33,553 nucleotides of DNA, taken from positions 1 to 33,553 of the forward strand of contig DASUYB010000013.1 in NCBI GenBank assembly GCA_036377595.1, written 5' to 3'. The stretch is from Longimicrobium sp. GTDB taxonomy: Bacteria > Gemmatimonadota > Gemmatimonadetes > Longimicrobiales > Longimicrobiaceae. The notes under the pieces were generated by a model. The model saw nothing but the letters and a program-made list of their open reading frames with translations, was not told the DNA's origin and did not search any database. The translations under genes were made by a program, and so were the position numbers. Positions 13,606 through 30,239 of this stretch are shown here, piece by piece (position 1 is the stretch's first letter; each line of letters begins with the position of its first letter).

Positions 13606-13785
13606 TCACGCATAGTACCGGTAGACCGTGTCGTTGATCATCGGCTCCTGCTGCTTCGGCGGGCACGTGCAGCTGTAGCAGTTCTGGTTGACGTCGGTCT
13701 CGCCGCCAGCCACCTGGTCCAGCTCCTCGACCTCGAGCGAGTCGACGTCGATGGCCTCGGGGTCCAGCCGCTTCTTCTCGGTCAT
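13606..13785 (-). CDS. RiPP precursor peptide A (NQNCYSCTC core)
   Basis: 59 residues. The leader MTEKKRLDPEAIDVDS is followed by LEVEELDQVAGG, a double-glycine leader of the type cut by C39 peptidases. The core after GG is ETDVNQNCYSCTCPP, then KQQEPMINDTVYRYYA. The three Cys (C36, C39, C41) are the only ones in the peptide. A good ribosome binding site (GGAGGACGCA) precedes ATG 13785. It is the last and longest-tailed of four near-identical copies behind the radical SAM gene, which is the likely modifying enzyme. I infer cleavage and export by the C39 ABC transporter encoded at 24578-26818. Confidence 0.9.
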   Translation of the reverse strand: MTEKKRLDPEAIDVDSLEVEELDQVAGGETDVNQNCYSCTCPPKQQEPMINDTVYRYYA

Positions 13786-13935
13786 TGCGTCCTCCTCCGC
13801 GATAGGGAAGGGGTGGTGGGCCGCGCCCGCTCGCGCGGTGTGGCATGGGCCACGCCGGGGGGCGCCGGGGAAGCGTGGATCGATCCGGGAATTCCCACGA
13901 ACGGGAGGTCATCCCGGTCGTGGGTCCGGGGTGCG

Positions 13936-13976
13936 GGAGCGGCCGTCCGCCCCGGGAGGGGGAGGACGGCCGCTCC
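13936..13976. terminator. Hairpin after precursor B
   Basis: A perfect 13-bp stem (GGAGCGGCCGTCC at 13936-13948 with 13964-13976) and a 15-base loop, starting 18 bases past the stop of precursor B on the minus strand. No U-run. It may be an RNA stabiliser or a partial terminator inside the precursor operon. Confidence 0.6.
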
Positions 13977-13993
13977 GGCCACCGTTGCGCGGC

Positions 13994-14158
13994 TCACACC
14001 AGGATCGGCTCGGCCGGGGCCTGCTGCCTGGGCGGGCAGGTGCAGCTGTGGCAGTTCTGGTTGATGTCGGTCTCGCCGCCGGCCACCTGGTCCAGCTCCT
14101 CCACCTCGAGCGAGTCGACCTCGATCTCCTCGGGGTTCATCCGCTTCTTCTCCGTCAT
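13994..14158 (-). CDS. RiPP precursor peptide B (NQNCHSCTC core)
   Basis: 54 residues with the same plan as precursor A: leader MTEKKRMNPEEIEVDS, then LEVEELDQVAGG, core ETDINQNCHSCTCPP and the tail RQQAPAEPILV. Leader and core are almost identical to A, with Tyr replaced by His between the first two cysteines. The tail differs freely, which suggests that selection acts on the leader and the Cys core. Ribosome binding site GGAGGCGGTG before ATG 14158. Same operon as the radical SAM maturase. Confidence 0.9.
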   Translation of the reverse strand: MTEKKRMNPEEIEVDSLEVEELDQVAGGETDINQNCHSCTCPPRQQAPAEPILV

Positions 14159-14219
14159 CACCGCCTCCACGGGTTGATGGTTGGGTCCCTCCCCGGCAGG
14201 CCGCCGGTGCGTACGGCGC

Positions 14220-14250
14220 GGCCGGCCCGCCGGCGCGTCGGGGGCCGGCC
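14220..14250. terminator. Hairpin directly after the six-Cys precursor
   Basis: A perfect 9-bp stem (GGCCGGCCC at 14220-14228 with 14242-14250) and a 13-base loop; it touches the stop codon of the gene ending at 14251. No U-run. Confidence 0.5.
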
Positions 14251-14454
14251 CTACTCCGCCGCTCCCTCGGGCACGGGCCCGCACTCCAGCGACAGCGCGC
14301 ATGCCAGCCAATGGCAGGTGACGCTGCACTGGCAGGTGCAGGTGCCTTCGTTGATGTTTCCCACCTCGTCGGCCGTGACCAGGTAGTCGAGCTCGTGCAC
14401 TTCGAGCGACTCGACCACGATCTCCTGCGGCCGCAGGCTGATGCGATGCTTCAT
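14251..14454 (-). CDS. Divergent RiPP precursor with six-cysteine core
   Basis: 67 residues from ATG 14454. The leader MKHRISLRPQEIVVESLEVHELD is exactly as long as that of precursors A, B, D and E and keeps the same Leu, Pro, Ile, Val and SLEV..ELD positions, which decides the start over the ATG at 14475. The Gly-Gly is lost: YLVTADEVG stands where DQVAGG should be. The core NINEGTCTCQCSVTC then HWLACALSLEC holds six cysteines, with Ser/Thr between them. It sits inside the precursor array. The six-Cys core might suggest a lanthipeptide or thioether peptide, but no lanthipeptide synthetase is visible here, so the radical SAM enzyme is the only candidate modifier in the window. Removal of this leader would need another protease or a different cut site. 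Confidence 0.8.
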   Translation of the reverse strand: MKHRISLRPQEIVVESLEVHELDYLVTADEVGNINEGTCTCQCSVTCHWLACALSLECGPVPEGAAE

Positions 14455-14475
14455 GGACGCCGCCTTTGCCGTCAT

Positions 14476-14751
14476 GGGCGCTCCCGGCGGGAGGGGACCG
14501 TCCCCGCGCCGCCATCGGGGGAAGATTCCCGGATCCGGGCAATCGCGTCTCGCGATGCCGCGGCCCGGCGCGTGCGTGGAGACGCGAGGCTTCCGGCCGG
14601 GCCGGCTCCGGGAGGACGTCGACCCGGCGTCGCCGGGCGGACGGAGCGGAGGTGGGGACGGTGGAACGGCCGTCCCGCCGCCGGACGGGCGGCGGCGGGG
14701 GCGATCCGCCGGTGCCGCGGCGGACCGGGATGGCTCCCGGGCCCCGCGGCG
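14476..14751. other. Gap without genes inside the precursor array
   Basis: About 276 bases between the decayed copy at 14752 and the six-Cys precursor. It is very G/C-rich with many short inverted repeats. I see no coding frame and no precursor-like leader sequence. It may be the remains of a lost precursor, but nothing recognisable is left. Confidence 0.5.
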
Positions 14752-14883
14752 CTACGCCGGGTGGGTGCGGCTGTAGCAGTTCCTGTTTTCGTCCAGCGCG
14801 CCGCCTGCCGCGGCGTCGGGCGCTTCGGCCTCGACCGGGTCGGCGTCGCGCTCCCGCGGGTCGAGCATCCGCGGCTCCGCCAT
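14752..14883 (-). pseudogene. Decayed RiPP precursor copy
   Basis: A 43-residue frame MAEPRMLDPRERDADP, then VEAEAPDAAAGG, then ALDENRNCYSRTHPA. It lines up with precursor D along its whole length, but LEVEELDQV has become VEAEAPDAA and the core NCYSCTCP has become NCYSRTHP, so two of three cysteines are gone. There is no ribosome binding site before the ATG at 14883, unlike the intact copies. It reads as a duplicated precursor that has drifted. It could still be a functional variant with one cysteine, which is less likely. Confidence 0.7.
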
Positions 14884-14936
14884 GGTGTGCCCGGCCGAGC
14901 GCAAGGCCGCCACGGCGGCCTCGTGCCGGGGGCCGG

Positions 14937-15098
14937 TTACGCCAGGACGACGGTGTCGCCCGGATCCCGCGCGGGGCAGGTGCAGCTGTAGCAGTTCTTG
15001 TTCACGTCGGTCTCGCCGCCCGCCACCTGGTCCAGCTCCTCGACCTCGAGGGAGTCGACGTCGATCTGTTCGGGATCGAGCTTCCTGGGTTCGGACAT
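14937..15098 (-). CDS. RiPP precursor peptide D (NKNCYSCTC core)
   Basis: 53 residues: leader MSEPRKLDPEQIDVDS, LEVEELDQVAGG, core ETDVNKNCYSCTCP, tail ARDPGDTVVLA. It keeps the three-cysteine CxxCxC spacing and the Gly-Gly site. The ribosome binding site (GAGGA, 7 bases before ATG 15098) is good. Its tail is nearly the same as the orphan fragment at 15159-15203, which shows that the array grew by duplication of this type. Confidence 0.9.
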   Translation of the reverse strand: MSEPRKLDPEQIDVDSLEVEELDQVAGGETDVNKNCYSCTCPARDPGDTVVLA

Positions 15099-15124
15099 GG
15101 GGTCCTCGTCGTGAAGGGGGTGAG

Positions 15125-15148
15125 GGGGCCCGGAGCACGCCGGGCCCC
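15125..15148. terminator. Hairpin between the orphan fragment and precursor D
   Basis: A 9-bp perfect stem GGGGCCCGG/CCGGGCCCC with a 6-base loop, without a U-run. It lies 27 bases upstream of the precursor D start and may block or slow ribosomes or polymerase between the copies. Confidence 0.5.
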
Positions 15149-15158
15149 GTGCGCGCGA

Positions 15159-15203
15159 CTACACCAGGATCACCGTGTCGCCCGGGTCGCGCGGCGCCGG
15201 GCA
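15159..15203 (-). pseudogene. Orphan 3' fragment of a precursor gene
   Basis: Fifteen codons including the stop read CPAPRDPGDTVILV, matching the end of precursor D (CPARDPGDTVVLA). No leader or start precedes it; the upstream bases belong to a hairpin and the end of precursor E. It is best read as the remains of a deleted or truncated precursor copy. Confidence 0.75.
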
Positions 15204-15221
15204 GGGTGAGGGAGGAAGGTT

Positions 15222-15252
15222 CCGGCGCGGACCGGGACGTGGTCCGCGCCGG
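15222..15252. terminator. Hairpin after precursor E
   Basis: A perfect 12-bp stem (CCGGCGCGGACC at 15222-15233 with 15241-15252) and a 7-base loop, 7 bases after the stop of precursor E on the minus strand. No U-run. Confidence 0.6.
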
Positions 15253-15259
15253 GCGGGGG

Positions 15260-15415
15260 CTACACGAAGATCGGCTCCTTCTGCGCCGGCGGGCAGGTGC
15301 AGCTGTGGCAGTTCTGGTTGACGTCGGTCTCGCCGCCGGCCACCTGGTCGAGCTCCTCCACCTCCAGCGAGTCCACTTCCACCGCCTCGGGGTCCAGTCG
15401 CTTCTTGTCGGACAT
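15260..15415 (-). CDS. RiPP precursor peptide E (NQNCHSCTC core)
   Basis: 51 residues and the first precursor after the maturase gene (78 bases between them). Leader MSDKKRLDPEAVEVDS, LEVEELDQVAGG, core ETDVNQNCHSCTCPP, short tail AQKEPIFV. GAGGAGACGGGACG precedes ATG 15415. The gene order puts it nearest the promoter, so it should be the best expressed copy if transcription decays along the array. Same inferred modification and export as its paralogs. Confidence 0.9.
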   Translation of the reverse strand: MSDKKRLDPEAVEVDSLEVEELDQVAGGETDVNQNCHSCTCPPAQKEPIFV

Positions 15416-15493
15416 CGTCCCGTCTCCTCGCTGGGATGAATGGGGGGCGCCGGGGGTCGGCGCTCCCGGGTGGCGCGGCCCGGACGGCCGCGG

Positions 15494-16972
15494 TCAGGCC
15501 TGCGCGGCCGCCAGGGCCGGGGCGGCCGCCGCCGCCCGCGCCCGGTCGTGCTCCGCCAGGGTAAAGCGCATCTCCTGCTTGAGCGTGCCCTTGATCCCGC
15601 AGCAGGTGCGGCGGTTGTCGGTGATGCGGGTGAGCGGGCAGTGCGCGCCCTGGCACACCGGCAGGACGTGGCAGTGCTGGCAGAGCTGGTCGGTCTCGTA
15701 GGCGGGGTTCACCCAGCGGAGCATGTGGTCGTCCTTCAGCTCCAGGGTGCCGTCGGGAAGCACCTTCCCCACCACGTTGCTGGCCTCCTCGTACAGCGCC
15801 ACCGTGCACTTCATCAGGTCGCCGTGCGCGCCCACGATGAAGGAGTACGGGCGCGCGGCGTAGCACACGCCGCTGCCCAGCGTGGCCATCTGGTGGATCC
15901 CGCCCTCCTGCGTGAGCCCCACCTCGTCGGCCTTCTTCTGGAGCATCTGCGCCACCCGGCGGTCCTCGCCCAGCCCGCAGGTGTCGAGGTTGTCGTCGTT
16001 GCTCCCGCCCCACTTGCCCACGGCGCGGAAGCGCAGCACGAAGCGCGGGTCGCCGGCGAAGTCCTCGGACAGTGCCTCGAGGAAGGCGCCCAGGCGGGGG
16101 AAGTTCCTGTGGTCGAAGTTGACGCGGACCTTGACCTTGAACTCCTCGCCGCGGCGATCGCGCAGCGAGCGCAGGTTGTCGAGGATGGTGGAGTAGGTGC
16201 CGCTGCCGTCGCGCCCCACGCGCTTGCAGTCGTGGTCCTCGGGGAGGCCGTCGATGGTGATCTGCCAGTCGCGCAGCCCCCACCCCAGCAGCCTGGTGGC
16301 CCGCTCCTCGGTGAGGAGGTAGCCGTTGGTGGTCATGTGCTGGCGGTAGTGTATCCCGTGCTGGCGCGAGACGTCGTGGAACACCGGCGCCAGCTCCTCC
16401 ACCGCCTCCCACCCGTACAGCGGCTCGCCGCCGAACCACGACACCTGCAGCTCGCGCAGCGTGGGGGCGCGGTTCCGCGTCAGCGCCATCAGCCCCTGGC
16501 GCACCTCGGGCGTCATGGTGCCGCGGGCGAACTTCTCGTAGCAGTAGACGCAGCGGAAGTTGCAGTCCTCGCTGGTCAGCAGGATCAGCTCGAGCTTGTC
16601 GGTCCTCCACTGCTCCTGCGCCCAGCGGTAGCGGAAGCGGTCCATCTCGCTGACCGTGTCGCGCACGAGGTAGCCGCGCCGGTGCAGGTACTCGCCGGTG
16701 GAGTCCAGCTTGCCGCGGCTGCCGCCCGAGTCCAGCCAGGCCAGCACGCGGTCGGCGTCGCGCGCGCCGAACACGCTGATGGCGCCGGTGAAGGTGTTCC
16801 ACAGGATGAGCCGGCCGTCCTCGACCACCGTGCGCGCGTTGTAGCGCGAGGGCACCCAGCGCTGGCCCGGCGTGTAGCCGAGCTTGACCAGCGTCACGGG
16901 CGTCTCGGGCGCGCCGCGGTCGTACGGCGACACCTGCATGTCGATGGTCGGCTTCATCGCGGGGATCTCCAT
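15494..16972 (-). CDS. Radical SAM/SPASM peptide maturase
   Basis: 492 residues. The N-terminal 110 residues (SRYNARTVVEDGRLILWNTF, then a Leu-rich helical part) look like the leader-binding front domain common in radical SAM RiPP maturases. The radical SAM cluster motif is CNFRCVYC (C137, C141, C144), followed by WFGGEP (residues 179-184), typical of this superfamily. The C-terminal SPASM region has C370, C389, CQHC (431, 434), C440, C445 and CC at 457-458, enough for two auxiliary iron-sulfur clusters. Such enzymes make radical-based links in peptides, often thioethers to cysteine. The precursors with the CxxCxC core follow directly, so they are the likely substrates; the exact bond is not predictable. 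ATG 16972 (AGGACAGC before it) and ATG 16957 are both possible. A sigma-54-like promoter lies 48 bases upstream. Confidence 0.93.
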   Translation of the reverse strand: MEIPAMKPTIDMQVSPYDRGAPETPVTLVKLGYTPGQRWVPSRYNARTVVEDGRLILWNTFTGAISVFGARDADRVLAWLDSGGSRGKLDSTGEYLHRRGYLVRDTVSEMDRFRYRWAQEQWRTDKLELILLTSEDCNFRCVYCYEKFARGTMTPEVRQGLMALTRNRAPTLRELQVSWFGGEPLYGWEAVEELAPVFHDVSRQHGIHYRQHMTTNGYLLTEERATRLLGWGLRDWQITIDGLPEDHDCKRVGRDGSGTYSTILDNLRSLRDRRGEEFKVKVRVNFDHRNFPRLGAFLEALSEDFAGDPRFVLRFRAVGKWGGSNDDNLDTCGLGEDRRVAQMLQKKADEVGLTQEGGIHQMATLGSGVCYAARPYSFIVGAHGDLMKCTVALYEEASNVVGKVLPDGTLELKDDHMLRWVNPAYETDQLCQHCHVLPVCQGAHCPLTRITDNRRTCCGIKGTLKQEMRFTLAEHDRARAAAAAPALAAAQA

Positions 16973-17439: not shown

Positions 17440-18693
17440 TCACCCGGCCTGGCGCGAGAAGGACTCCGGCTTCAGGCGGTGATGGCGGAGGAAGTCCATG
17501 AACTTGAGATAGTCGGCCGCGTCCACGCCGATGCGGCGGAGCAGGCGCTTGTAGCTGCCGTTGCTCTCGGCCAGACCGCGCTGCAGGATCGCGCGCACCT
17601 CGCCGCGGCTGATCTCGCGCTCCATGAACGGCTCGCGCACCACGTCCCAGAAGCTCTCGCCGCCGCGCGACATGCGCTCCCACGCCTCGGCCGCCGCGTC
17701 GCCGCCGGGACGGGGGGCGGGGGCGTGGCCGTTGCTCCCGGCGGGCGCGTGGCCGTTGCCGCCGGGCGCCGGCGCCGCGTGCGCGGCAGAGCTCTCCAGC
17801 GCGGGGATCAGCTCGTCGACGGTGATCTCGCGCCCCTCGGCCAGGTGGAAGCCCATGTCGATCAGCCCGTTCAGCTCGCGCACGTTGCCGGGCCAGTGGT
17901 AGCGCCCCAGCAGGTCGTGCGCCTCGGACGACAGCGTCTTGCAGCTGCCGTGCGAGGCCAGCCCCGCCAGGCAGTGGGTGGAGATGAGCTCCCAGTCGGT
18001 CCCCCGCTCGCGCAGCGCGGGAACGTGGATCCAGAAGTAGCGCAGGCGATAGAACAGGTCCTCGCGGAAGGTGCCCGCCTCCACCATCGGCCGCAGGTCG
18101 CGGCTGGTGGCGGCGATCACCCGCACGTCCACGTAGCGCACCACCGATCCCCCGACGGGGACGACCTCGCCCTCGCTGAGCGCGCGCAGGAGCATGGCCT
18201 GCGCGGCGGGCGACAGCTCGCCCACCTCGTCCAGGAACACCACGCCCCCGCTGGCTTCCTCGAAGATCCCGCGGTGGTCGTTCACCGCGCCTGTGAAGCT
18301 GCCCTTGCGGTGGCCGAACAGCTCGCTGGCCATCAGGTTGCCGTCGTGGTACTGCGCGCAGTTCACGCGCACGAACGGGCGTCCCCGGCGCGGGCCCAGG
18401 AGGTACAGGGCGCGGGCGAACAGCTCCTTTCCCGTCCCCGTCTCGCCGGTGAGCAGGATGGGCGCGCTGGAGGCGGCGAAGCGCTCGAGCTTGCGCTGCG
18501 ACTCGAGGAGCGCGGCGTCGCGGCCGATGAGCGTGACGGCGTGGGCCGCGCCCCAGCTTTCCACCGAGCGCAGGCGCACCGCCTCGGCCAGCGGCGAGAG
18601 CGCGCCGGCGGGGGGTACGGGTCCGGCAGGGTGGGTGCGCGGGCTCACCGCGGCCTCAAACGCACGAAGCCGCCCGGGTCCACAGTGCGCCAT
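17440..18693 (-). CDS. Sigma-54-dependent transcriptional activator (bEBP) with GSFTGA loop
   Basis: About 417 residues from ATG 18693; a TTG at 18726 would add 11. The AAA+ domain has Walker A GETGTGKE (83-90), the sigma-54 contact loop GSFTGA (131-136, against the usual GAFTGA), Walker B VVFLDEVGEL (about 151), FREDLFYRL and WPGNVREL (267-274). The first 60 residues are short and carry no recognisable receiver, GAF or PAS domain. A Gly/Pro/Ala/His linker follows the AAA+ part, and the C-terminus (LQRGLAESNGSYKRLLRRIG) looks like a Fis-type DNA-binding helix-turn-helix of a variant type. The gene lies inside the RiPP cluster, and paired dyads occur upstream of three cluster operons, so it probably activates them. 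Confidence 0.9.
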   Translation of the reverse strand: MAHCGPGRLRAFEAAVSPRTHPAGPVPPAGALSPLAEAVRLRSVESWGAAHAVTLIGRDAALLESQRKLERFAASSAPILLTGETGTGKELFARALYLLGPRRGRPFVRVNCAQYHDGNLMASELFGHRKGSFTGAVNDHRGIFEEASGGVVFLDEVGELSPAAQAMLLRALSEGEVVPVGGSVVRYVDVRVIAATSRDLRPMVEAGTFREDLFYRLRYFWIHVPALRERGTDWELISTHCLAGLASHGSCKTLSSEAHDLLGRYHWPGNVRELNGLIDMGFHLAEGREITVDELIPALESSAAHAAPAPGGNGHAPAGSNGHAPAPRPGGDAAAEAWERMSRGGESFWDVVREPFMEREISRGEVRAILQRGLAESNGSYKRLLRRIGVDAADYLKFMDFLRHHRLKPESFSRQAG

Positions 18694-18884
18694 GACGGGC
18701 GCATCCGTGTTCCTCGGCGGCTTCAACAGCAGGGCGAGACAGACACCGGGGCGCGCAACTCCCCCGGCGGTGTGAGGGTGGAACTGTCATCTGCCCTCGC
18801 GAGACGCGGAGACCCGGCCGTGAGGAGGGCCGGGGGATCGACATCCCCTGGGGGAGATCAGGATAAGCCTCAAGAGCGCGGCTG

Positions 18885-20063
18885 TCAATGAACAGTCGTG
18901 AAAAATGTGCTTTCTGAACGCGGTTCTACACCATTTGTCCAAGGACGGCGGCGTGAACGGTACAGACGCGCCATCGCATCCTCCGACGCCAGCGCTTCCA
19001 GCGGCAGCGCGAAAAGAGCGGCGAGGAGCGCGCCCCGCTCCGCGGACCCGCCGCGGGCACGGCGCGCGGCGTCCCATTCGCCCAGCGCGGTGACCGCGGC
19101 GTGCGCCATCGAGCGCAGCACCGCGAAGGCACCCTCTCCCAGGGCGCCGCGATAGTTGGCCAGGCGCCCGCCGGGGCGGAAATGGGGATGGTCCTCGATT
19201 CCCAGGAAGCGCAGCGCCCAATCGGAGCGGTAGCGCCCGGCGGCGGCGGTGATCCCCGCGAAGTCGGCCACGATCTCGTCGAGCGCGTGGGTCCGCATCG
19301 CCCCCAGCACGCGGCGGCAGAAGTAGTGCGCCGCCTCGTGCTCCAGGCGGATGGCCAGCGAGAGCGCGTCCCACCTCTCCGGCTCCATCCCCATCTCCCG
19401 TGCCGAGACGCCGCTGTACGGGCCGGGGGAGAGGATCACGAAGCGGTCCTGGTACAGCTCCTTGCGGGGGATTATCTCTCGCCACGCCGCGCGCCATCCC
19501 TCACCGTCTCCCGGATGATCCGCCTCCCACGCCCGCCGCAGCGCGGCGATGCGGTCCCAGTTGGCGAACCCCGCCACCATCAGCGCGCCCATCGAGTCGG
19601 GGATGGGGTCGGGCTCGCCATGCCGCGCCAGCGCGCGGACCAGCGTGGCGAAGTCGTCGCGGCACCCGGCGGCGAGGACGGGGAGGCGTCCCGCGGGGGT
19701 GGGATGGACAAAGAGACGGAGCGCGTCCGGCCGCGCGAGCTCCACGCCGGGCCCGTCCGGCGGCGGCGCGCCGCGTAGGGTGGACGCGCGGTACGCCTCC
19801 GTCTCGCTCATCCCCCTGGCGATGGGGAAGGCGAGCTGGGGGAGGCGCGCGCGCAGCACGGGCCAGGCGCCGCGCGCCTCCGCCTCGGCCTGGTAGCCGA
19901 GCCACGCAGCGGCGAACGGTTCGTCGGGGAGGGGGAGCGCGGGTGGGCGCGGGGGGCGGCGGAGGTGGACGCGGGTGTACGCCAGCAGCTCCTCCACCTC
20001 GGCGGGGCCGGCGCCGTGGCTGCGGTGGACCGCGGCGCGGAAGGCCGCCCCGCGCGCGCTCAC
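18885..20063 (-). CDS. Unknown protein with HEAAH metalloprotease-like motif
   Basis: 392 residues from a GTG start that overlaps the stop of the gene upstream by four bases (GTGA), so the two are translationally coupled. Residues 242-246 read HEAAH, preceded by LAIRL, followed by YFCRRVLG and then LDEIVADFAG (262-271). H242, E243 and H246 with a downstream acidic residue (E263 or D267) would fit a zincin metal site of the HExxH...E type. There is no signal peptide. I do not recognise the family. The motif and its place between the exporter genes and the activator make a peptidase or a peptide-handling enzyme attractive, but this is inference. A non-enzymatic or lipase-like role is not excluded. 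Confidence 0.75.
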   Translation of the reverse strand: MSARGAAFRAAVHRSHGAGPAEVEELLAYTRVHLRRPPRPPALPLPDEPFAAAWLGYQAEAEARGAWPVLRARLPQLAFPIARGMSETEAYRASTLRGAPPPDGPGVELARPDALRLFVHPTPAGRLPVLAAGCRDDFATLVRALARHGEPDPIPDSMGALMVAGFANWDRIAALRRAWEADHPGDGEGWRAAWREIIPRKELYQDRFVILSPGPYSGVSAREMGMEPERWDALSLAIRLEHEAAHYFCRRVLGAMRTHALDEIVADFAGITAAAGRYRSDWALRFLGIEDHPHFRPGGRLANYRGALGEGAFAVLRSMAHAAVTALGEWDAARRARGGSAERGALLAALFALPLEALASEDAMARLYRSRRRPWTNGVEPRSESTFFTTVH

Positions 20064-21298
20064 CGCTGCCCCCGCGCGGCCAGCGTCTCGGGCGGGGGCG
20101 CGGCGGTGCCGGCCGCGTAGTCGAGGTAAACGAAGCGGCCGCCCTGCACGGTGATGGTGGTGATGGGCTTGGTGGGGAGGTCGCCGTTGGCGTCGTAGGT
20201 GAAGGGGCCGGTGACGCCCGCCCAGCCGCGGGTGGCGTGCAGCGCGGCGGCCACGCGGTCGGGCGCGGTGCTCCCCGCGCGGGCGATGGCGTCGGCCAGG
20301 ACGCGGACGGCGTCGTAGCCCAGCGCGGCGGCGGCGTCGGGCGGGCGGCCGTAGCGCGCGCGGAAGGCGGCGCCGAAGCGGCGCACCTCGTCGCGCGGCG
20401 CGTCGGGGTGGAAGGCCGCCACGATCGTCGTTCCCTCGGCCGCGGCCCCGGCGGCCATCAGGTCGGGAACGCCGAGCGCGTCGCCGCCCAGCACGGGCTG
20501 GGTGATGCCGCGGCGTCGCGTCTCGGACAGGAAGGTGGCGGCGTGCGGCGTCTCGCCGGCCAGAAGGATGGCGTCGAAGTCCAGCTGCTTCCACTCGTCG
20601 AGCAGGGGATCGAGCGCCGAGGCGCCGGGCGCGGCGTTGGGGTCGTAGCTCTGCCGCGCGGCGATGCGGATCCCCAGCTCGCCGGCGTGCTCCTCGAAGG
20701 CGTTGGCCAGCGAGCGGCCGTAGGCGTTGCGCACGTAGTAGATGGCGATGCTGCGCCAGCCGCGGCGGTGCGCGACGTCGGCCAGCTGCGCCCCCGCGGC
20801 CACGTCGCTGAAGGTGCCGCGGAAGACGTGCGCGTAGCGCGAGCGCGTGAGCTCGGGATCGGTCGCCGCGGGCGCGAGGAGGACGACGCCCGCCAGGTCG
20901 TAGATGGGCGCGGCGGGGATGGTCACGTACGACTGGAGATGGCCGATCACGGCAACGACGCCGGGGTCCTCGGCGAAGCGCTGGGCCACGAGGCGGCCCT
21001 CGTCGACGGATTCGTGGTCGTCGGCCGCGAGGATGCGGATGCGCCGGTGGAGGACGCCGCCCCTGGCGTTGACCTCGTCGACCGCCATGTCGAGCCCCTG
21101 GCGGTAGAGGAGCTGGCTGCGCGCGGCCCACGGCCACGCCGCGCCGATGACGACGTCGCCCTTGCCGGACTCGGCGCGGCGGAGGCGCTCGGCCGCGGGG
21201 TCGGCGGTGCCGCCGCACGCCTGCAGCGTAGCCAGCGCCGCCAGTGCGGCGAGCGCGGCGGCGATGCGGGCGCCGGGGAGCGAGCGGAACGTGCGCAT
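20060..21298 (-). CDS. Branched-chain amino-acid-type substrate-binding lipoprotein
   Basis: 412 residues. MRTFRSLPGARIAAALAALAALATLQAC is a lipoprotein signal with a lipobox (LQAC), so the protein is anchored on the periplasmic side. The rest is a type I periplasmic-binding fold of the LivK/Peripla_BP_6 kind: DVVIGAAWPWAARSQLLYRQ, GVVAVIGHLQSYVTIPAAPI and ALGYDAVRVLADAIARAG. No permease or ATPase for an uptake transporter lies beside it. The ATG at 21298 gives a sensible signal peptide; the frame continues upstream to 21409 without one. It overlaps the HEAAH gene by four bases. Given the cluster, it may sense or capture a peptide or amino acid, but its ligand is unknown. Confidence 0.88.
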   Translation of the reverse strand: MRTFRSLPGARIAAALAALAALATLQACGGTADPAAERLRRAESGKGDVVIGAAWPWAARSQLLYRQGLDMAVDEVNARGGVLHRRIRILAADDHESVDEGRLVAQRFAEDPGVVAVIGHLQSYVTIPAAPIYDLAGVVLLAPAATDPELTRSRYAHVFRGTFSDVAAGAQLADVAHRRGWRSIAIYYVRNAYGRSLANAFEEHAGELGIRIAARQSYDPNAAPGASALDPLLDEWKQLDFDAILLAGETPHAATFLSETRRRGITQPVLGGDALGVPDLMAAGAAAEGTTIVAAFHPDAPRDEVRRFGAAFRARYGRPPDAAAALGYDAVRVLADAIARAGSTAPDRVAAALHATRGWAGVTGPFTYDANGDLPTKPITTITVQGGRFVYLDYAAGTAAPPPETLAARGQR

Positions 21299-21644
21299 CG
21301 GCACCGCCTTCGGAGGGGGAAGCCCGGCTCCATCTCGGATCGAGACGGGCGAATGAATTCGCGGCAACAACGGCCCGAAGTCCGCCTTCGCGGACTCCCG
21401 CGGCGGCATCCGCGCGGACGGGACGCATCGAGGCGGAGACGGGCATCCCGAAACTGCATCGACGCGTCAGCGCGGCATCGACCGGGGCAAGTCGATGACC
21501 GGCGGCAACCTCGATCCCATCTACCCAAACGTCCGCGCGGCCGTCCGCCGGGTCCCCGGGTTGAAACCCGGGGCTGGAACTGCGGGAAGTCCGCCTTCGC
21601 GGACTGCGCGGAGACGGTCGAGCGCGCTAGGGGCGTCGATCCAG
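21299..21644. repeat. Gene-free region with two copies of a palindromic repeat and a hairpin
   Basis: The 18-base palindrome AGTCCGCCTTCGCGGACT occurs twice, at 21379-21396 and 21588-21605. Between them is CCCCGGGTTGAAACCCGGGG (21554-21573), a perfect 7-bp stem. No coding frame is convincing. These look like small dispersed intergenic repeats. The region separates the exporter operon from the binding-protein gene, so it probably holds the latter's promoter, which I cannot point to. Confidence 0.7.
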
Positions 21645-21692: not shown

Positions 21693-24581
21693 CTACGCGA
21701 TCTGCCTTCGCGCCAATTCCCGGAACGGCCCGTCCACCGCCATCAGCTCGTCGTAGCGCCCCGACTGGACGACGGTGCCGCGCTCGATCACGCAGATGCG
21801 GTCGGCGTGCACGATGGTGCTCAGGCGGTGCGCGATCACCAGGCGGGTGGCGCGCAGGCCGGCCAAGGAGTCGCTGACGATGGCCTGGGTGCGGTTGTCG
21901 AGCGCGCTGGTGGCCTCGTCGAAGAGGAGGATGCGCGGGCGCGTGACGATCGCCCGCGCGATCATCAGCCGCTGCCGCTGGCCGCCGGAGAGCGTCGTCC
22001 CGCCCTCGCTCACCATCGTGTGCATCCCCATCGGCATGGCCTTGATGTCGGCGTCCAGCCCGCTCATCCGCGCCGCCTCCCACGCGTCCTCGAGGTTCGC
22101 GCCGGTGGAGCCCACGATGTTGGAGAAGAGGTCGCCCGGCATCAGCCGCCCGTTCTGCAGCACTACCCCGATCTGCCGCCGCAGCAGCAGCACGTCCACC
22201 CCGCCCAGCTCCTGCCCGTCGAAGAAGATCGACCCCGACTCGGGCTGCTCGAAGCCCAGCAGGAGGCGGAAGAGGGTGGACTTGCCCGACCCCGACGGCC
22301 CCACCAGCGCCACGAACTCGCCCGGCTCGGCATGGAACGACAGGTCGTCGAGCACGTAGGCGCCGTCCTCGGCGTAGCGGAAGAAGAGGTGCTGCACCGA
22401 GACCTCGCCCTGCAGCACGCCCGGGTCCGCGCGCCCCGCGTCGATCTCGGGCTCGGCCTCGAGGATCGGCCGCGCGATCTCGTACTGGGGGATGGCGGAA
22501 AGCGCCTGGGTGACGGCGATGCTGGTGCTGAGCAGCGCCGCGGTGAAGGAGCCGAAGGCGGCCATGAACGCCAGGAAGTCGCCCGTGCGCATCCCGTCTT
22601 CCTTCCCCACCATCCCCGCCGCGATGGCGAAGACCACGGCCTGCGCCAGCACCGGGAAGCCGGAGTTGAAGGAGGCCAGCCCCCCCGCCGCGCGGCGCAC
22701 CGCGTACCTCAGCCGCCGCTGCTCGGCGAAGCGGTCGGCCCACAGCCCGAACGCGCGGGCCTCGGCCGCGGCGGCGCGCAGCTTGGCGATCCCCGTGAGC
22801 AGCTGCAGCACCACCCCCTCGATCTCGGCCTGCAGCCGGCTGAGCACCCGCTGCCGCCGCAGCTGCACCACGCTGCTGGCCACGGTCGCCACGACGAGAA
22901 GAGAGGCGAGGAACGTCGCCCACAGCGCCAGCCTGCCGCTGTAGTGGAAGAGCAGGGCGAAATTGAAGAGGGAGAAGAGAAGCCCGAGGAGCGCCGTGGC
23001 GGATGCGCCCGATAGCGCCTCGCGGATGGCGTCGACGCCCATGGCGCGCGAGGCCAGGTCGCCCGCGGCGCGCGCGCGGAAGAAGTTGGGCGGCAGCGAC
23101 AGGAGGCGGTCCCACACGGCTCCCTGCACCGCGCTTCCCGCCTTCCCCTCGATGCGCGTGAGGGCGACGGCGCGGGTGAGCTGGAAGAGCGCGGCGGCCA
23201 CGGCCACCGCCAGGAGGACGGCGGTGAGCTGCGCCAGCTGCGCCCGCTCCGCCCCCGGGATCACCGAGTTGAAGAGCAGCCCCGTGGCGACCGGGGGCGC
23301 CATCGCCAGCGCGCCGCCGGCCGCGCCCACGGTCAGCAGCGTGGCCAGGTCGCGCCCGCACCCCCGCACCCCGTGCCGCAGGAGCCCCAGGATCCCCACC
23401 GGCCCCGGCGCGAAGGGGCGGTAGAACGACCAGGCGAAGGGGGAGAGGGTGCCCGCCTCCTTCGCGTCCATCGGGGTCCGCGTGCGGTCTGTAGGGTCGC
23501 ACAGCACGTAGCGGTTCCCCCGCTCGGGGAGGAGCGCCACGGCGCGGAGGCCGTTCTCGCGCACCGCCAGCATCGGCCCGCCGTCGCGGCGCCACCAGTC
23601 GTCGCGCAGCATCACCTTGCGCGTCTGGTAGCCCGACGCGCGCGCGATGGCCGCCAGGTCGCCCGTCACCGACGCCGGCGGGGGGCGGACGGTGAGCCCC
23701 TGCGCCTCGGCCACCAGGCGGCAGGCGGCCAGGAGGGCGTTCTCCTCCTCGCCGGGGGCGCGCAGCCGCATCCCTCCCTTCAGCCGGCGCGGATCGATGA
23801 CCGTGGCCAGCCGCCCCGTGGCCCGCGCCAGCACCGCCCGGTCGAGCGCGGCGCGCCGGCGCAGCCGCTCGCGCCCCGTCTTCTCCTCCGCCTCCGCCAT
23901 CACCCCGGCGGCGGCCAGGACGAGGTCGTGCAGCCGCTCGAGCCCCACCCACGCTTCCGCGGCGGGGGGCATCGCCGTCCCCGCCGTCACCCGCGCCTCG
24001 TTCTCCGCCGTCACCCACGCCGGCGCGGCGATGGGGACGGTGGCGCCGCCGTTCAGCGGGAGCGCGCGCATCGACAGCAGGTAGGTCGTCCCCTCGCCGT
24101 GGCGGAGCCAGGCCACGCCGACGGGGCGCACCGTGGCGCCGGCGGCCAGCGTGCGGGTGCCGCCCGGCGCCAGGTCGTCGGAGCGGCGGGGGACGGCGTC
24201 GCGGGCGATCCCCGCGCAGAGCGCCGCGGCCCACCCTTCCACCGCGTGCACGGCCGCCTCGCGCTCGGCCCCGTCCGCGGCAAGGCGGAGATGCCCCTGC
24301 GCCAGCGCCAGCAGCCGCGTCCCCGCCGCGGCGGCCGCCAGCAGCCCCATCCCGTGCGCCCCGGCCGACGCGCCGAGGCCCAGCAGCGCGCCGCCGGACT
24401 CCACGCGCACCAGGTGGCGGCGCGGCCCGTACGGCTCGGCGTCGCGCACGCGCACGGCGAACACGTCCACGTGCCCCTGCGCCACCAGCCACGCGGTGTC
24501 GCCGCCCAGCAGGAAGGGCCGCGGGGCGGACACGGGCGCGCCGTGCGCCGCGAAGAGCGAGCGGAGGGCGGGCGCGCTCAC
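21693..24581 (-). CDS. NHLP-type bacteriocin ABC transporter, permease/ATPase with inactive front domain
   Basis: 962 residues from a GTG start overlapping the upstream stop by four bases (GAGTGA). A long N-terminal part (about residues 1-400) has a cyclic-nucleotide-binding-like beta region and a C39-like segment without catalytic Cys/His. After it come the ABC membrane domain and the ATPase: Walker A GPSGSGKST near 762, signature LSGGQ near 861, Walker B ILLFDEATSALD near 885. This is the second transporter of the NHLM (NHLP) export pair; its partner upstream holds the active peptidase. Together with HlyD and TolC it should form the export route for the mature peptides. The open frame continues upstream to 25172, but that part is a shadow of the partner gene. 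Confidence 0.92.
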   Translation of the reverse strand: MSAPALRSLFAAHGAPVSAPRPFLLGGDTAWLVAQGHVDVFAVRVRDAEPYGPRRHLVRVESGGALLGLGASAGAHGMGLLAAAAAGTRLLALAQGHLRLAADGAEREAAVHAVEGWAAALCAGIARDAVPRRSDDLAPGGTRTLAAGATVRPVGVAWLRHGEGTTYLLSMRALPLNGGATVPIAAPAWVTAENEARVTAGTAMPPAAEAWVGLERLHDLVLAAAGVMAEAEEKTGRERLRRRAALDRAVLARATGRLATVIDPRRLKGGMRLRAPGEEENALLAACRLVAEAQGLTVRPPPASVTGDLAAIARASGYQTRKVMLRDDWWRRDGGPMLAVRENGLRAVALLPERGNRYVLCDPTDRTRTPMDAKEAGTLSPFAWSFYRPFAPGPVGILGLLRHGVRGCGRDLATLLTVGAAGGALAMAPPVATGLLFNSVIPGAERAQLAQLTAVLLAVAVAAALFQLTRAVALTRIEGKAGSAVQGAVWDRLLSLPPNFFRARAAGDLASRAMGVDAIREALSGASATALLGLLFSLFNFALLFHYSGRLALWATFLASLLVVATVASSVVQLRRQRVLSRLQAEIEGVVLQLLTGIAKLRAAAAEARAFGLWADRFAEQRRLRYAVRRAAGGLASFNSGFPVLAQAVVFAIAAGMVGKEDGMRTGDFLAFMAAFGSFTAALLSTSIAVTQALSAIPQYEIARPILEAEPEIDAGRADPGVLQGEVSVQHLFFRYAEDGAYVLDDLSFHAEPGEFVALVGPSGSGKSTLFRLLLGFEQPESGSIFFDGQELGGVDVLLLRRQIGVVLQNGRLMPGDLFSNIVGSTGANLEDAWEAARMSGLDADIKAMPMGMHTMVSEGGTTLSGGQRQRLMIARAIVTRPRILLFDEATSALDNRTQAIVSDSLAGLRATRLVIAHRLSTIVHADRICVIERGTVVQSGRYDELMAVDGPFRELARRQIA

Positions 24582-26818
24582 TCGGCCTCCAGCAGCGCGC
24601 GGTAGGGGCCGCCGGCGGCGTACAGCTCGTCGTGCGTTCCCCGCTGCACCACCTTGCCGCGCTCCAGCACCAGGATCTCGTCGGCGTCGCGGATGGTGCT
24701 GAGGCGGTGGGCCACGATCAGGCAGGCGCATCCCCGCCGGCGCAGCGCGTCGTCCACCGCCGCCTCGGTGGGGGGATCGAGCGCGCTCGTCGCCTCGTCG
24801 AGGACGAGAAGCGAGGGATTGCCCACCAGCGCGCGGGCGATCTCCAGCCGCTGGCGCTGGCCGCCGCTGAAGTTGCGCCCCGCCTCCTCCACCCGCCCGT
24901 GGTAGCCCCCCGGGCGCGCGGTGATCTCGTCGTGCACGCAGGCGTCCCGCGCGGCGCGCACCAGCTCGGCCTCGGACACGCCGGGGTCCCACAGCGCCAG
25001 GTTGTCGCGCACGGTGCCGGCGAACAGGAACACGTCCTGGTCCACGAAGGCCAGCGACGAGGCGATGGCCGCCGGCGCCAGCGCGTCGCGCGGGCGGCCG
25101 TCCAGCAGCACCTCGCCCGCCCAGGGGTGGTGGAGCCCGGCCACCAGGCGCGCGATGGTCGACTTCCCGCACCCCGACTCGCCCACGAGCGCGATCCGCC
25201 GCCCCGGCTCGAGGACCAGCGACAGGCCGTCGATCAGCGGCGGCTCCAGCGGGCTGTAGCCGAAGGTCACCCCGCGCAGCTCCAGCCGCCCCTCCAGCCG
25301 CGGCGCCTCTTCGGCCTCGTCGGCCGCGAAGGCGCCGGCCATGGGGTCGGGAGTGGCGTTCAGCACGTCGTCGAGGCGCGCCAGCCCGCCCTTCACCTCC
25401 TGCAGCGTCCCCCCCAAGTCCACCAGGCGGTTGACGGGAGAGATGAAGGCCAGGAGAAGGGCCTGGAGGGCCACCAGCATCCCCATGCTCAATCTCCCGT
25501 CCATCACCCGCACCCCGCCGATCCCCAGCAGCAGCGCGGTGTTCACGGCCATCAGGAAGGGGGGGACGACGGAGAGGAGATGGGTGTACAGCGCCAGCTC
25601 CTGCTGCGCGTTGACCACCTTGGCCTGCTGCCCCGCCCAGCGGCTGAAGAAGGCCGCCTCGCTCCCGGTGGCCTTCAGCGTCTCGATGGTCTGCAGCCCG
25701 CCCATGGCCACGCCCATCAGCTTGCCGCGGTCCTGCTGCAGCCGCTGCGAGATGTCGGTGCGCCGCCGCGACACCCAGCGCAGCGCGAGGACGTTGAGCG
25801 CGGCCACGGTCACGCCCAGCCCCGCCAGGAGGAGGTCGTACTGCACCATCACCGCGGCGTAGAAGGCGATCACCAGCAGGCTCAGCAGCGTGGTGGCCAG
25901 CTCGCCGGAGAGGAGCTGGGCCACGCGGTCGTTGATGGCCACGCGCGAGCTGATCTCGCCCGCGAAGCGCTGGGTGAAGAAGCCCACGGGAAGGCGGAGG
26001 ACGTGCCAGAGGAAGCGCCCCGAGCTTCCCAGCGCCAGCCGCGTTTCCAGCCGCAGGAGCTGCCGCTGCTGCAGCCAGGTGAGCCCGCCCATCACCAGCC
26101 CCGCCGCGGCCATCGCGACGAGGAGGGGGAGGGTCCAGGCGGAGAGCCCTTTCACCAGCACCTGGTCCACGAACACGCGCGAGAAGGCGGGGGCGACGAG
26201 GCCGGGGACGACCAGCACCGCGCCCGCCGCCACCGCGAACGCCACCGCCGCCTGCGCGCCGCGGAGGCGCCCCCGCAGCGACTGCACGATCCCGGGGAGC
26301 GCGCCGCCGCGGGCGAACGCCTCGCCCGGGCGGAAGGTGAGGACCACGCCGGTGAACGCCTGGTCCAGCTCCTCAAGCGTGACGCGGCGTGGGCCGGTGG
26401 CGGGGTCGTTCAGGTACGCCCATCCCTTGCGGAACCCCTCCAGCACCACGAAGTGGTTGAAGTTCCAGTGCAGGATCGAGGGTACCGGGAGGTCGCGCAG
26501 CTGCGCCGGCTCCTTCTTGAACCCCTTGGCCACCATCCCGTAGCGGACGGCGGCCTTGACCATGTTGCTGGCCTTGCTCCCGTCGCGGCTGACGCCGCAG
26601 GCCAGGCGCAGCTCCTCGAGCGGCACCCAGCGGCCGTGGTGGGCCAGGACCATCGCCAGCGTGGCGGCGCCGCACTCCACCGCCTCGAGCTGCAGGATGG
26701 TGGGTACGCGCACGCGCGTCTGCGCCTCGCGCCGCACCAGCCGCAGCACGTCGCGCGGCCGGAACCCGCGCGCGGCCGGCTCCGGCTGCGCGACGGCGGC
26801 GGGCGCGGCCTCAGACAC
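24578..26818 (-). CDS. C39 peptidase-containing ABC exporter (NHLP family)
   Basis: 746 residues. The N-terminal C39 peptidase has the expected triad: Q43 and C49 in LQLEAVECGAATLAM, H122 in HWNFNHFVVLEG and D138 in YLNDPATG. It cuts leaders after Gly-Gly, which occurs in at least six precursors here (VAGG, AAGG). A six-helix exporter domain and an ATPase (GESGCGKST, FSGGQRQRLEIARAL, LLVLDEATSALD) follow. The start is GTG 26818 with GGAGGGGCGC before it. It overlaps the NHLP partner transporter by four bases. HlyD ends 177 bases upstream with a hairpin repeat between, probably still one operon. Confidence 0.95.
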   Translation of the reverse strand: MSEAAPAAVAQPEPAARGFRPRDVLRLVRREAQTRVRVPTILQLEAVECGAATLAMVLAHHGRWVPLEELRLACGVSRDGSKASNMVKAAVRYGMVAKGFKKEPAQLRDLPVPSILHWNFNHFVVLEGFRKGWAYLNDPATGPRRVTLEELDQAFTGVVLTFRPGEAFARGGALPGIVQSLRGRLRGAQAAVAFAVAAGAVLVVPGLVAPAFSRVFVDQVLVKGLSAWTLPLLVAMAAAGLVMGGLTWLQQRQLLRLETRLALGSSGRFLWHVLRLPVGFFTQRFAGEISSRVAINDRVAQLLSGELATTLLSLLVIAFYAAVMVQYDLLLAGLGVTVAALNVLALRWVSRRRTDISQRLQQDRGKLMGVAMGGLQTIETLKATGSEAAFFSRWAGQQAKVVNAQQELALYTHLLSVVPPFLMAVNTALLLGIGGVRVMDGRLSMGMLVALQALLLAFISPVNRLVDLGGTLQEVKGGLARLDDVLNATPDPMAGAFAADEAEEAPRLEGRLELRGVTFGYSPLEPPLIDGLSLVLEPGRRIALVGESGCGKSTIARLVAGLHHPWAGEVLLDGRPRDALAPAAIASSLAFVDQDVFLFAGTVRDNLALWDPGVSEAELVRAARDACVHDEITARPGGYHGRVEEAGRNFSGGQRQRLEIARALVGNPSLLVLDEATSALDPPTEAAVDDALRRRGCACLIVAHRLSTIRDADEILVLERGKVVQRGTHDELYAAGGPYRALLEAE

Positions 26819-26995: not shown

Positions 26996-28255
26996 TCATC
27001 CCCCCGCCAGGCGGCGGAAGATGGGAAGGACGAGCGCCACGGGCCGCACCTCGCGCAGGGTGATCTGTGCCTTGCAGAGGGTGCCGCTGCGCACCTCCAG
27101 CGGCGGGCCGGCTGGGCTCGACCAGCGGTAGCGGCTGACCGTGCGCGGGTCGGGGATCAGGTCGGCGTGCACCTCGTAGGGCGCGCCGGTGCCGGCCAGC
27201 GCCTGCGCCAGCGCCTCGTTCTTCAGCACCCGCGCCAGCCCCTCGGGGGTGGCCGGGAAGTCGGAGACGTAGGTGACCGTGCCCAGCATCAGCCCGTACT
27301 CCTCCTCGCGCACGGTGCTGGGGGCGATCTGGATGCGCATCCCCGGGCGGATCTTCTTCCCCGCGTCGGACGACACGTAGACGATGGCCTCCAGGTCCTT
27401 CACCGTACGCCCCACGGGGTCGATGCGGACGACGGGGCGGCCGCGCTCCACCACGTGCCCCTGCTCGGCCATCACCTCCACCACCCGCCCCGTGTAGGGC
27501 GACACGACATTCGAGGTGCGCTCGAGCTCCGCCTCCAGCCGCTGCACCTCGCGCTGCGCCTCTTCCACCTGCAACTGCCCGGTCAGCAGCGAGGCGTCGG
27601 TGCGCTGGCGCACCGCCACCTGGTCGGCGTCGAGCTGCTTCAGCTGGCTCTGCGCCTGGCGGATCTGCTCCTGCACGTTCTGGTACTCCTGGCGCGTGCT
27701 GAGCAGCGTCTGCCGGGTCACCAGCCCGTCGCGCACCAGCCGCTCCTGGCTCTCCATCTTCTGCTCCAGCAGCTGCAGCGTCTGCTGGCTGGCGCGGATC
27801 CCCGCCTCGAGGTTGCTGCGCTGCTGCGACGCGTACGAGGCCTGCACCGAGCGCTCGCGCGAGGCCGACTGGGCGGTGCGCTGCTGCGAGAGCCGCAGGT
27901 CTTCCAGGTGGTTGCGCGCCTCGGTGAGCTTGTCCTGCAGCTCCGGCTGCGCCACCCGGGCCACCACCTGCCCCTCGTTCACCGTCTCGCCCACGTTCAC
28001 CGCCACGTCGGTCACCCGCCCGCCCTCCAGCGGCACCACCTCGTAGATCCCCCCGCTCTTCACCAGGATCCCCTGCCCGGGGATCTTCTCGGGGACCGCG
28101 CCGGCCACCCCCCAGCTCACCGTCACCGCCAGCAGCAGGGCGATGGCGCCCAGCGCCAGCCACCCGCCGGGGGTGGTGGCCTGCATGGCTTGGTCGAGCT
28201 GCTCGGGGCTGGCCAGCCGGTCGAGCGACACCTTGCGGAAGATGCTGTCGGCCAT
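26996..28255 (-). CDS. HlyD-type membrane fusion protein (NHLP secretion protein)
   Basis: 419 residues. A cytoplasmic start (MADSIFRKVSLDRLASPEQL), one membrane helix (LALGAIALLLAVTVSWGVAG, about 32-51), then a lipoyl/barrel part (VPLEGGRVTDVAVNVGETV), a long Gln/Glu/Arg-rich coiled coil (about 108-245) and the second half-barrel (SPYTGRVVEVMAEQGHVVER). This is the periplasmic adaptor that links the inner-membrane ABC exporters to TolC. The ATG at 28255 shares one base with the TolC stop (TGATG), so the two genes are coupled. Confidence 0.93.
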   Translation of the reverse strand: MADSIFRKVSLDRLASPEQLDQAMQATTPGGWLALGAIALLLAVTVSWGVAGAVPEKIPGQGILVKSGGIYEVVPLEGGRVTDVAVNVGETVNEGQVVARVAQPELQDKLTEARNHLEDLRLSQQRTAQSASRERSVQASYASQQRSNLEAGIRASQQTLQLLEQKMESQERLVRDGLVTRQTLLSTRQEYQNVQEQIRQAQSQLKQLDADQVAVRQRTDASLLTGQLQVEEAQREVQRLEAELERTSNVVSPYTGRVVEVMAEQGHVVERGRPVVRIDPVGRTVKDLEAIVYVSSDAGKKIRPGMRIQIAPSTVREEEYGLMLGTVTYVSDFPATPEGLARVLKNEALAQALAGTGAPYEVHADLIPDPRTVSRYRWSSPAGPPLEVRSGTLCKAQITLREVRPVALVLPIFRRLAGG

Positions 28256-29823: not shown

Positions 29824-29828
29824 ACGCC

Positions 29829-30173
29829 TCAGGGCTTGAGCGGGTCGGGCGGGGGCGGCGGGGGAGGAGGAGGCGGGTCGTCGCTCCACGTGCCGTCGCC
29901 GCCGGCGGCCTCTTCCAGCTCGTCCTCGCTCAGCTCGTCGGTGTCGCGCGCCGGGTCGGGGAGCACCACCAGCGCGTCGAGGTCGCGCGGCCGCTCGACG
30001 AAGCGCACCCGGTAGCCGGCGGGAAGGGTGATCCCCAGCGTCTCGCGGAGCGCCCGCGCCGGGTCCGTCAGCAGCGCGTGGCGGAACTCCGGGTCGTGGG
30101 CGGCGCGGTCCGCCACCCTTTCCCACCCCGGCTCGCGGGGCGGGCCTGAAGAACCGGTCGGGTGTGGCGGCAT
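29829..30173 (-). CDS. NHLP-leader RiPP precursor with deca-proline core
   Basis: 114 residues. WERVADRAAHDPEFRHALL, TDPARALRETLGITLPAGY and RVRFVERPRDLDALVVLPDP form a nitrile-hydratase-like leader peptide (NHLP). LSEDELEEAAGG (81-92) ends it at a double glycine. The 22-residue core starts DGTWSDD, then has ten consecutive prolines (P100-P109) and ends DPLKP. The proline codons are mixed (CCG, CCT, CCC), so this is not a simple slippage run. It has no Cys and only one Thr and one Ser, so the usual TOMM or thioether chemistry is not obvious. Translating the run should need EF-P. GGAGACGACC precedes ATG 30173 and a good sigma-54 promoter lies 52 bases upstream. It is the first gene of the TolC/HlyD/ABC operon. 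Confidence 0.88.
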   Translation of the reverse strand: MPPHPTGSSGPPREPGWERVADRAAHDPEFRHALLTDPARALRETLGITLPAGYRVRFVERPRDLDALVVLPDPARDTDELSEDELEEAAGGDGTWSDDPPPPPPPPPPDPLKP

Positions 30174-30223
30174 GGTCGTCTCCGGCGTCGGGTGCGGGGG
30201 CCTGCTCGGGCGGCGGTATCCGG

Positions 30224-30239
30224 GGCAACGAGCGTTCCC
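30224..30239 (-). promoter_or_regulatory. Putative sigma-54 promoter of the NHLP precursor/exporter operon
   Basis: The minus strand reads GGGAACGctcgTTGCC. Against TGGCACG-N4-TTGCW it keeps GG, A, C, G and the full TTGC with exact spacing (9 of 11 defined bases). The GC is 52 bases before the start codon at 30173, which places the transcription start near 30213 with a leader of about 40 bases. Confidence 0.65.

Follow-up and report, generated by a model that had tools for sequence, protein, structure and literature searches.

The stretch of DNA analysed here, hereafter the window, comprises positions 1-33,553 of contig DASUYB010000013.1 from the soil bacterium Longimicrobium sp. (GCA_036377595.1); coordinates without a locus label refer to it. 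It carries a gene cluster for ribosomally synthesized and post-translationally modified peptides (RiPPs), in which a radical S-adenosylmethionine (SAM)/SPASM maturase gene lies beside an array of precursors, four of them intact, as the original prediction had placed them. The maturase gene, all precursors, an NHLM export module and the cassette genes near it are all on one strand (minus). The maturase and the array are laid out as follows:

15494..16972, minus strand: radical SAM/SPASM RiPP maturase, 492 amino acids (PF04055, 1.1e-13)
15260..15415, minus strand: precursor 6, intact, core ETDVNQNCHSCTCPPAQKEPIFV
15160..15210, minus strand: remnant precursor tail, reading SPCPAPRDPGDTVILV and then a stop, resembling the tail of the copy at 14937
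14937..15098, minus strand: precursor 5, intact, core ETDVNKNCYSCTCPARDPGDTVVLA
14752..14883, minus strand: decayed precursor copy, ALDENRNCYSRTHPA, with a degenerate leader, NRNC retained and CxC gone
14251..14475, minus strand: divergent precursor, leader ESLEVHELD retained, core NINEGTCTCQCSVTCHWLACALSLEC (NINEGTCTCQC)
13994..14158, minus strand: precursor 2, intact, core ETDINQNCHSCTCPPRQQAPAEPILV
13606..13785, minus strand: precursor 1, intact, core ETDVNQNCYSCTCPPKQQEPMINDTVYRYYA

All four intact precursors share the leader SLEVEELDQVAGG and the core ETD[VI]N[QK]NC[YH]SCTCP, with NQNC or NKNC (Asn-x-x-Cys) in every core, and the pattern N.NC..C.C occurs four times in the window compared with none in 20 shuffles. 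Across the 27 codons from leader to core, pairs of copies differ by 2-7 synonymous and 1-3 non-synonymous codons, and the tails cannot be aligned with one another. This combination of mostly synonymous change and unrelated tails argues that the core is under selection, rather than being the product of recent duplication alone. In addition, the decayed, divergent and remnant copies indicate that the array gains and loses members over time. No second copy of the array was found elsewhere in the same 7.2 Mb genome, and the divergent precursor is restricted to this genome, being absent from other genomes of the family. A RiPP cluster with a SPASM maturase and variable tails, as originally proposed, is thereby supported.

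The maturase combines an N-terminal RRE-like domain, the CxxxCxxC motif (C137, C141, C144) and a complete set of SPASM cysteines (C370, C389, C431, C434, C440, C445, C457), and these positions are unchanged across 23 relatives; it thus has the radical SAM core and the auxiliary-cluster cysteines of the SPASM domain that are expected of a ranthipeptide synthase. In its AlphaFold2 model (pLDDT 87.9), the N-terminal domain resembles RREs in its three strands and helices. The closest PDB fold is CteB (5why; Z 24.9, 388 residues, rmsd 4.7), a ranthipeptide synthase (PMC11002830), and the structural match takes in residues 42-120, i.e. the N-terminal domain; CteB is also the top PDB sequence match (1.7e-17). 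When the maturase was compared with curated profile families, no named maturase family scored above its cut-off: the best NCBIfam profile was TIGR04463 (182.1 bits, cut-off 525), with NF047865 (PapB) at 99.5 bits (cut-off 340) and TIGR03974 (SCIFF/CteB) at 74.2 bits (cut-off 425), and assignment to TIGR04463, SCIFF or PapB was therefore rejected. TIGR04463 (rSAM_vs_C_rich) is the best profile for the window enzyme and for distant relatives alike, with the window enzyme far under its cut-off, and no mention of it was found in the literature searched.

The farther relatives were found by an alignment-based scan of genome contigs with the maturase, a single-sequence scan having given none. Homologues within the same genus and family are 50-65% identical, and farther ones (about 31-50%) occur in Myxococcota, Acidobacteriota, Pseudomonadota, Deinococcota, Actinomycetota, Cyanobacteriota and others. 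The cluster L018 of genome G003 occupies the same chromosomal site as the window, with neighbours 68-85% identical and an enzyme 65% identical; most of its dozen or so precursors have a DNTNCSQSCTSNTNC-like core. Other loci have quite different cores: NQNCFC and NLNCGC in L019, NIYCPTTNKESCNSGC and NYNCGC in L108, NNLCIC in L110, NGNCSC (twice) in L026, CNGRC in L025 and L027-L029, DNTWCDEGC in L031 and L032, NTNC..NSNC in L035, DNCNC in L036, NVGC..NISC in L075, NYQC in L056, NFGC in L061 and NIGC in L059. Thus, the core described as invariant in the original prediction is so within this array, but cysteine spacing varies freely in relatives, and a fixed CxxCxC warhead is rejected, since relatives at 57-65% enzyme identity show NTNCSQSCTSNTNC, NIYCPTTNKESCNSGC and the two L019 cores. 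Because the Cys pattern is variable, the fixed feature of the family, as seen in a comparison with about forty related clusters from many phyla, is Asn exactly three residues before Cys (N-x-x-C) and not Cys spacing. A cyclophane reading of [YH]-S-C as a three-residue motif was likewise rejected family-wide, as L018, L026 and others lack conserved aromatics.

The prevalence of Asn at this position was assessed in candidate open reading frames (ORFs) chosen by strand and distance, an acidic leader and a Cys among the final 22 residues being required, and Asn not being a criterion; the set was trimmed at 70% redundancy, and non-Cys residues within the last 30 were permuted. Asn stands at -3 of Cys 39 times in the close clade, compared with 8.1 expected (sd 2.4, z 12.8, 0 of 1000 permutations), and 25 times in the wider in-group, compared with 4.5 (sd 2.0, z 10.2, 0 of 1000). 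Outgroup loci show no enrichment (3 vs 2.8 expected), the opposite-strand control is close to chance, and all loci pooled give 60 vs 14.1 (0 of 2000). At offsets other than -3 and -1, Asn is near expectation. Family-wide, the count for Asn at -3 is 65 and the next highest is 19, for Ser; an NxxC peptide is present in 36 of the 54 loci having any candidate, and where the core has only one Cys the distance is retained (NFGC in L061, NIGC in L059). In a quick enzyme tree, the NxxC loci fall in a 61-row clade (SH-aLRT 91), and the clade containing the window (SH-aLRT 100) has NxxC in 19 of 22 rows; the labels for L027, L030, L033, L034, L035 and L040 were assigned outside the automatic set, by inspection or because the locus was nearly identical to one that bore a label. 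The rows of the window clade that lack NxxC are L020 (NVNVQAC), L109 and L111, and for the last two the contig presumably ends before the expected region, judging from positions in L110 and L021.

These observations make it probable that the window encodes a multi-precursor RiPP cluster in which Asn-Cys thioethers form at NxxC, most likely at the Asn beta-carbon, before Gly-Gly cleavage and NHLM export. The radical SAM enzyme NxxcB joins Cys23 of NxxcA to the beta-carbon of Asn20, i.e. at NxxC (PMC8326336; PMC13361665), and this link, together with the CteB-like fold, suggests an Asn-Cys thioether that is most likely beta-linked. The thioether chemistry first proposed appears likely, whereas the remark that no described spacing fits was partly wrong, as N(i)..C(i+3) matches Asn20-Cys23 of NxxcA (PMC8326336, PMC13361665). 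In the proposed mechanism, the RRE-like domain would bind the acidic leader SLEVEELDQVAGG, and the enzyme would oxidatively join the Cys sulfur to the Asn three residues upstream, with 2 Da lost per link; the linked carbon would most likely be the beta-carbon, as with NxxcB, and the first link in the window array would be Asn1-Cys4 of N1xN3C4xxC7xC9. Cleavage after Gly-Gly would then fall to the C39 peptidase-ABC transporter, and HlyD/TolC-like parts would export products with a common stapled NxNC head and differing tails, perhaps with an antibacterial or signalling role. The N/C pair as crosslink, the beta-carbon position, the cleavage site, export by this pump and the biological role are inferences, as is what becomes of the two remaining Cys of the window core.

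Several observations weigh against this reading. NxxC accounts for part of the window core at most, since two of its three cysteines lie outside this spacing, C7 with its Asn at -4 and C9 with none. Asn at -1 of Cys is also enriched (18 vs 7.3 in the close clade, 14 vs 4.8 in the wider in-group), which an NxxC bond does not explain. Moreover, NxNxxxC takes the place of NxxC in L020 (NVNVQAC) and in the window's divergent precursor (NINEGTC), and the Cys-rich peptides of L042 (Tumebacillus avium) contain no Asn. Finally, the fold likeness to CteB, at 19% identity, leaves regiochemistry unfixed, and the parallel with NxxcA/NxxcB is one of published spacing.

Among the alternatives, alpha-carbon thioethers (sactionines) at Asn instead of beta-carbon bonds are rather unlikely. 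Asn is documented as a sactipeptide acceptor (PMC8326336), and alpha and beta bonds are indistinguishable from sequence, but the top fold and PDB sequence match is a non-alpha synthase (PMC11002830), NxxC is the spacing found in a beta-linked peptide (PMC8326336), and in most sactipeptides the donor Cys lies upstream of the acceptor (PMC8326336), whereas here Asn is upstream. We also regard it as unlikely that Asn serves recognition or folding, with the enzyme doing other chemistry (e.g. Cys to Ser/Thr/Tyr links or epimerisation) and the cysteines forming disulfides or binding metal. The lack of Asn at -3 of C7 and C9, the enrichment at -1 and the aromatic C+1 position of the window array ([YH]) would fit such a role, but no residue besides Asn is fixed relative to Cys family-wide, L018 and many relatives lack aromatics, and the Asn-Cys distance is held even where the core has one Cys. 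It is very improbable that shared ancestry or ORF picking produced the enrichment: related peptides are non-independent and the motif was partly first noticed in the close clade, but picking was blind to Asn with a 70% redundancy cut, the wider in-group repeats the signal despite unalignable leaders, and neither the outgroup nor the opposite-strand control departs much from chance.

More tentatively, the Asn-Cys thioether reading may extend to a crosslinked RiPP family that spans seven phyla or more, where cores of the form NxNCxC (L019, L026, L108, L040, L085) would bear two interleaved N-x-x-C rings (a fused bicycle) and the window array would be a variant with a widened second ring (N1-C4, N3-C7). 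Such a fused bicycle was not among the topologies found described in the literature searched.

The streptococcal RaS-RiPP pair NxxcA/NxxcB resembles the window family in having Asn three residues before the core Cys, a radical SAM enzyme and a short precursor. However, it has one link, comes from streptococci and is tied to Rgg quorum sensing, whereas the window family spans many phyla and shows arrays of several precursors, NxxC that is repeated or interleaved, leaders with Gly-Gly, export by NHLM genes and a sigma-54 activator; no Rgg/SHP regulator was found adjacent to the cluster among scanned ORFs, the regulator there being the sigma-54 activator. CteB/thermocellin and other SCIFF synthases share the RRE-radical SAM-SPASM architecture and the fold, but identity in the structural alignment is 19% and their acceptor is a Thr downstream of Cys. 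PapB/freyrasin (CX3D Cys-Asp beta-carbon thioethers) is likewise a radical SAM ranthipeptide system with a repeated motif, but the acceptor Asp follows Cys, while Asn precedes Cys in the window family. In addition, no LanB/LanC/LanM-type lanthipeptide synthetase was found among the ORFs scanned with Pfam.

The chemistry would be of a known type, ranthipeptide-like with NxxcA spacing, and the maturase falls below the cut-offs of the named enzyme families compared. The family itself, spanning at least seven phyla, is apparently undescribed as well as widespread (no description was found in the literature searched, which largely excluded subscription papers), and its architecture of arrays, repeated or interleaved NxxC and NHLM export is apparently new. 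That literature presents NxxcA as a narrow subfamily, confined to one link and to streptococci. If NxxC is the modification site, Asn-Cys thioether peptides would occur in Gemmatimonadota, Myxococcota, Acidobacteriota, Pseudomonadota, Cyanobacteriota, Actinomycetota, Deinococcota and others, and the link position would be predictable from sequence alone. Such arrays would then be natural libraries, with one stapled head, varied tails and their own protease-exporter.

The export module at 21.7-30.2 kb, which went unnoticed in the original prediction, and the neighbouring cassette comprise the following genes:

28255..30228, minus strand: TolC-like outer membrane efflux protein (PF02321, 1.4e-31)
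26996..28255, minus strand: NHLM HlyD-type adaptor (TIGR03794, 355.6 bits, cut-off 156.2)
24578..26818, minus strand: NHLM peptidase-permease-ATPase (TIGR03796, 1083.6 bits, cut-off 853.3; PF03412)
21693..24577 (start uncertain), minus strand: second NHLM ABC permease-ATPase (TIGR03797, 901.6 bits, cut-off 709.4)
20060..21409, minus strand: periplasmic binding protein belonging to the conserved cassette (PF13458, 3.8e-52)
18885..20036, minus strand: DUF7005 protein, accessory (PF22541, 1.8e-117)
17440..18726, minus strand: sigma-54 activator, probable regulator (PF00158, 6.1e-60)

TIGR03794, TIGR03796 and TIGR03797 are thus all over their cut-offs within one locus, as in NHLM/NHLP bacteriocin export, although the window precursors have short acidic Gly-Gly leaders and not nitrile hydratase or Nif11 leaders (no profile match). 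The C39 peptidase has its catalytic residues (Cys in ECG, His in NHFVV, Asp in NDPA), and this protein (24578..26818) likely cuts after VAGG and exports the product; the presence of the module on the same strand would explain the precursors' Gly-Gly site. Gly-Gly leaders occur in the window, L018, L108, L026, L031, L056 and L061, and C39 ABC genes adjoin homologous radical SAM genes in many further loci.

Between the export genes and the maturase lie the periplasmic binding protein, the DUF7005 protein and the sigma-54 activator. The second ABC gene, DUF7005, the precursors and the radical SAM gene recur in the G018 cluster (L108), where a sigma-54 activator (57% identical) is also close by. 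The cassette of second ABC gene, periplasmic binding protein, DUF7005 and sigma-54 activator, a conserved part of NHLM export loci, is also seen without this radical SAM gene (within 12-20 kb around), which argues that the export part is a module also serving other peptide systems; for the same reason, DUF7005 was rejected as a dedicated maturase part. DUF7005 was found in 7 of 249 Gemmatimonadota genomes. Its HExxH is invariant in five sequences, with LEHE[AC][AT]HY and DE[IL][VI]AD conserved, and proteins with these motifs also occur at L108, L056, L063, L032 and L113-L118. A role as a protease or alpha-ketoglutarate HExxH oxygenase found no support in the fold search, where the predicted model was poor (mean pLDDT 65) and the best match (Z 4.6, Foldseek E 1.0) was significant by neither measure. 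In G125, a DUF7005 export cassette shares a 20-kb stretch with three NHLP/Nif11-like Cys-free precursors (L121:1384-2545; LETVAGG, then hydrophobic tails).

Further precursor types were also seen. Genome G003 (L018, L019, L020) has four homologous maturases, whose precursors fall into three leader types and cores unrelated to one another, and L019 contains two radical SAM genes with one precursor each and a TPR-repeat-like gene between them. The NxNxxxC spacing replaces NxxC in two unrelated precursors, 14251-14475 and L020:2890-3366. In Tumebacillus avium, three identical tandem precursors without NxxC, ending SGCSTCGSSSCCGSC, lie near a related radical SAM gene (L042:9146-9686). A precursor-like ORF at L008:1477-1698 combines the leader LEVDSLSMEDLEAVAGG with a core in which SYTCP units are repeated (CPQSYTCPGSYTCPASYTCPQSYTCPN). 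Lastly, a gene between a distant maturase and a EFSILELEDRLEFA precursor (L021:7945-9600) has weak lipid A acyltransferase similarity (PF03279, 1.9e-5), and acylation of the EFSILELEDRLEFA peptides is possible.

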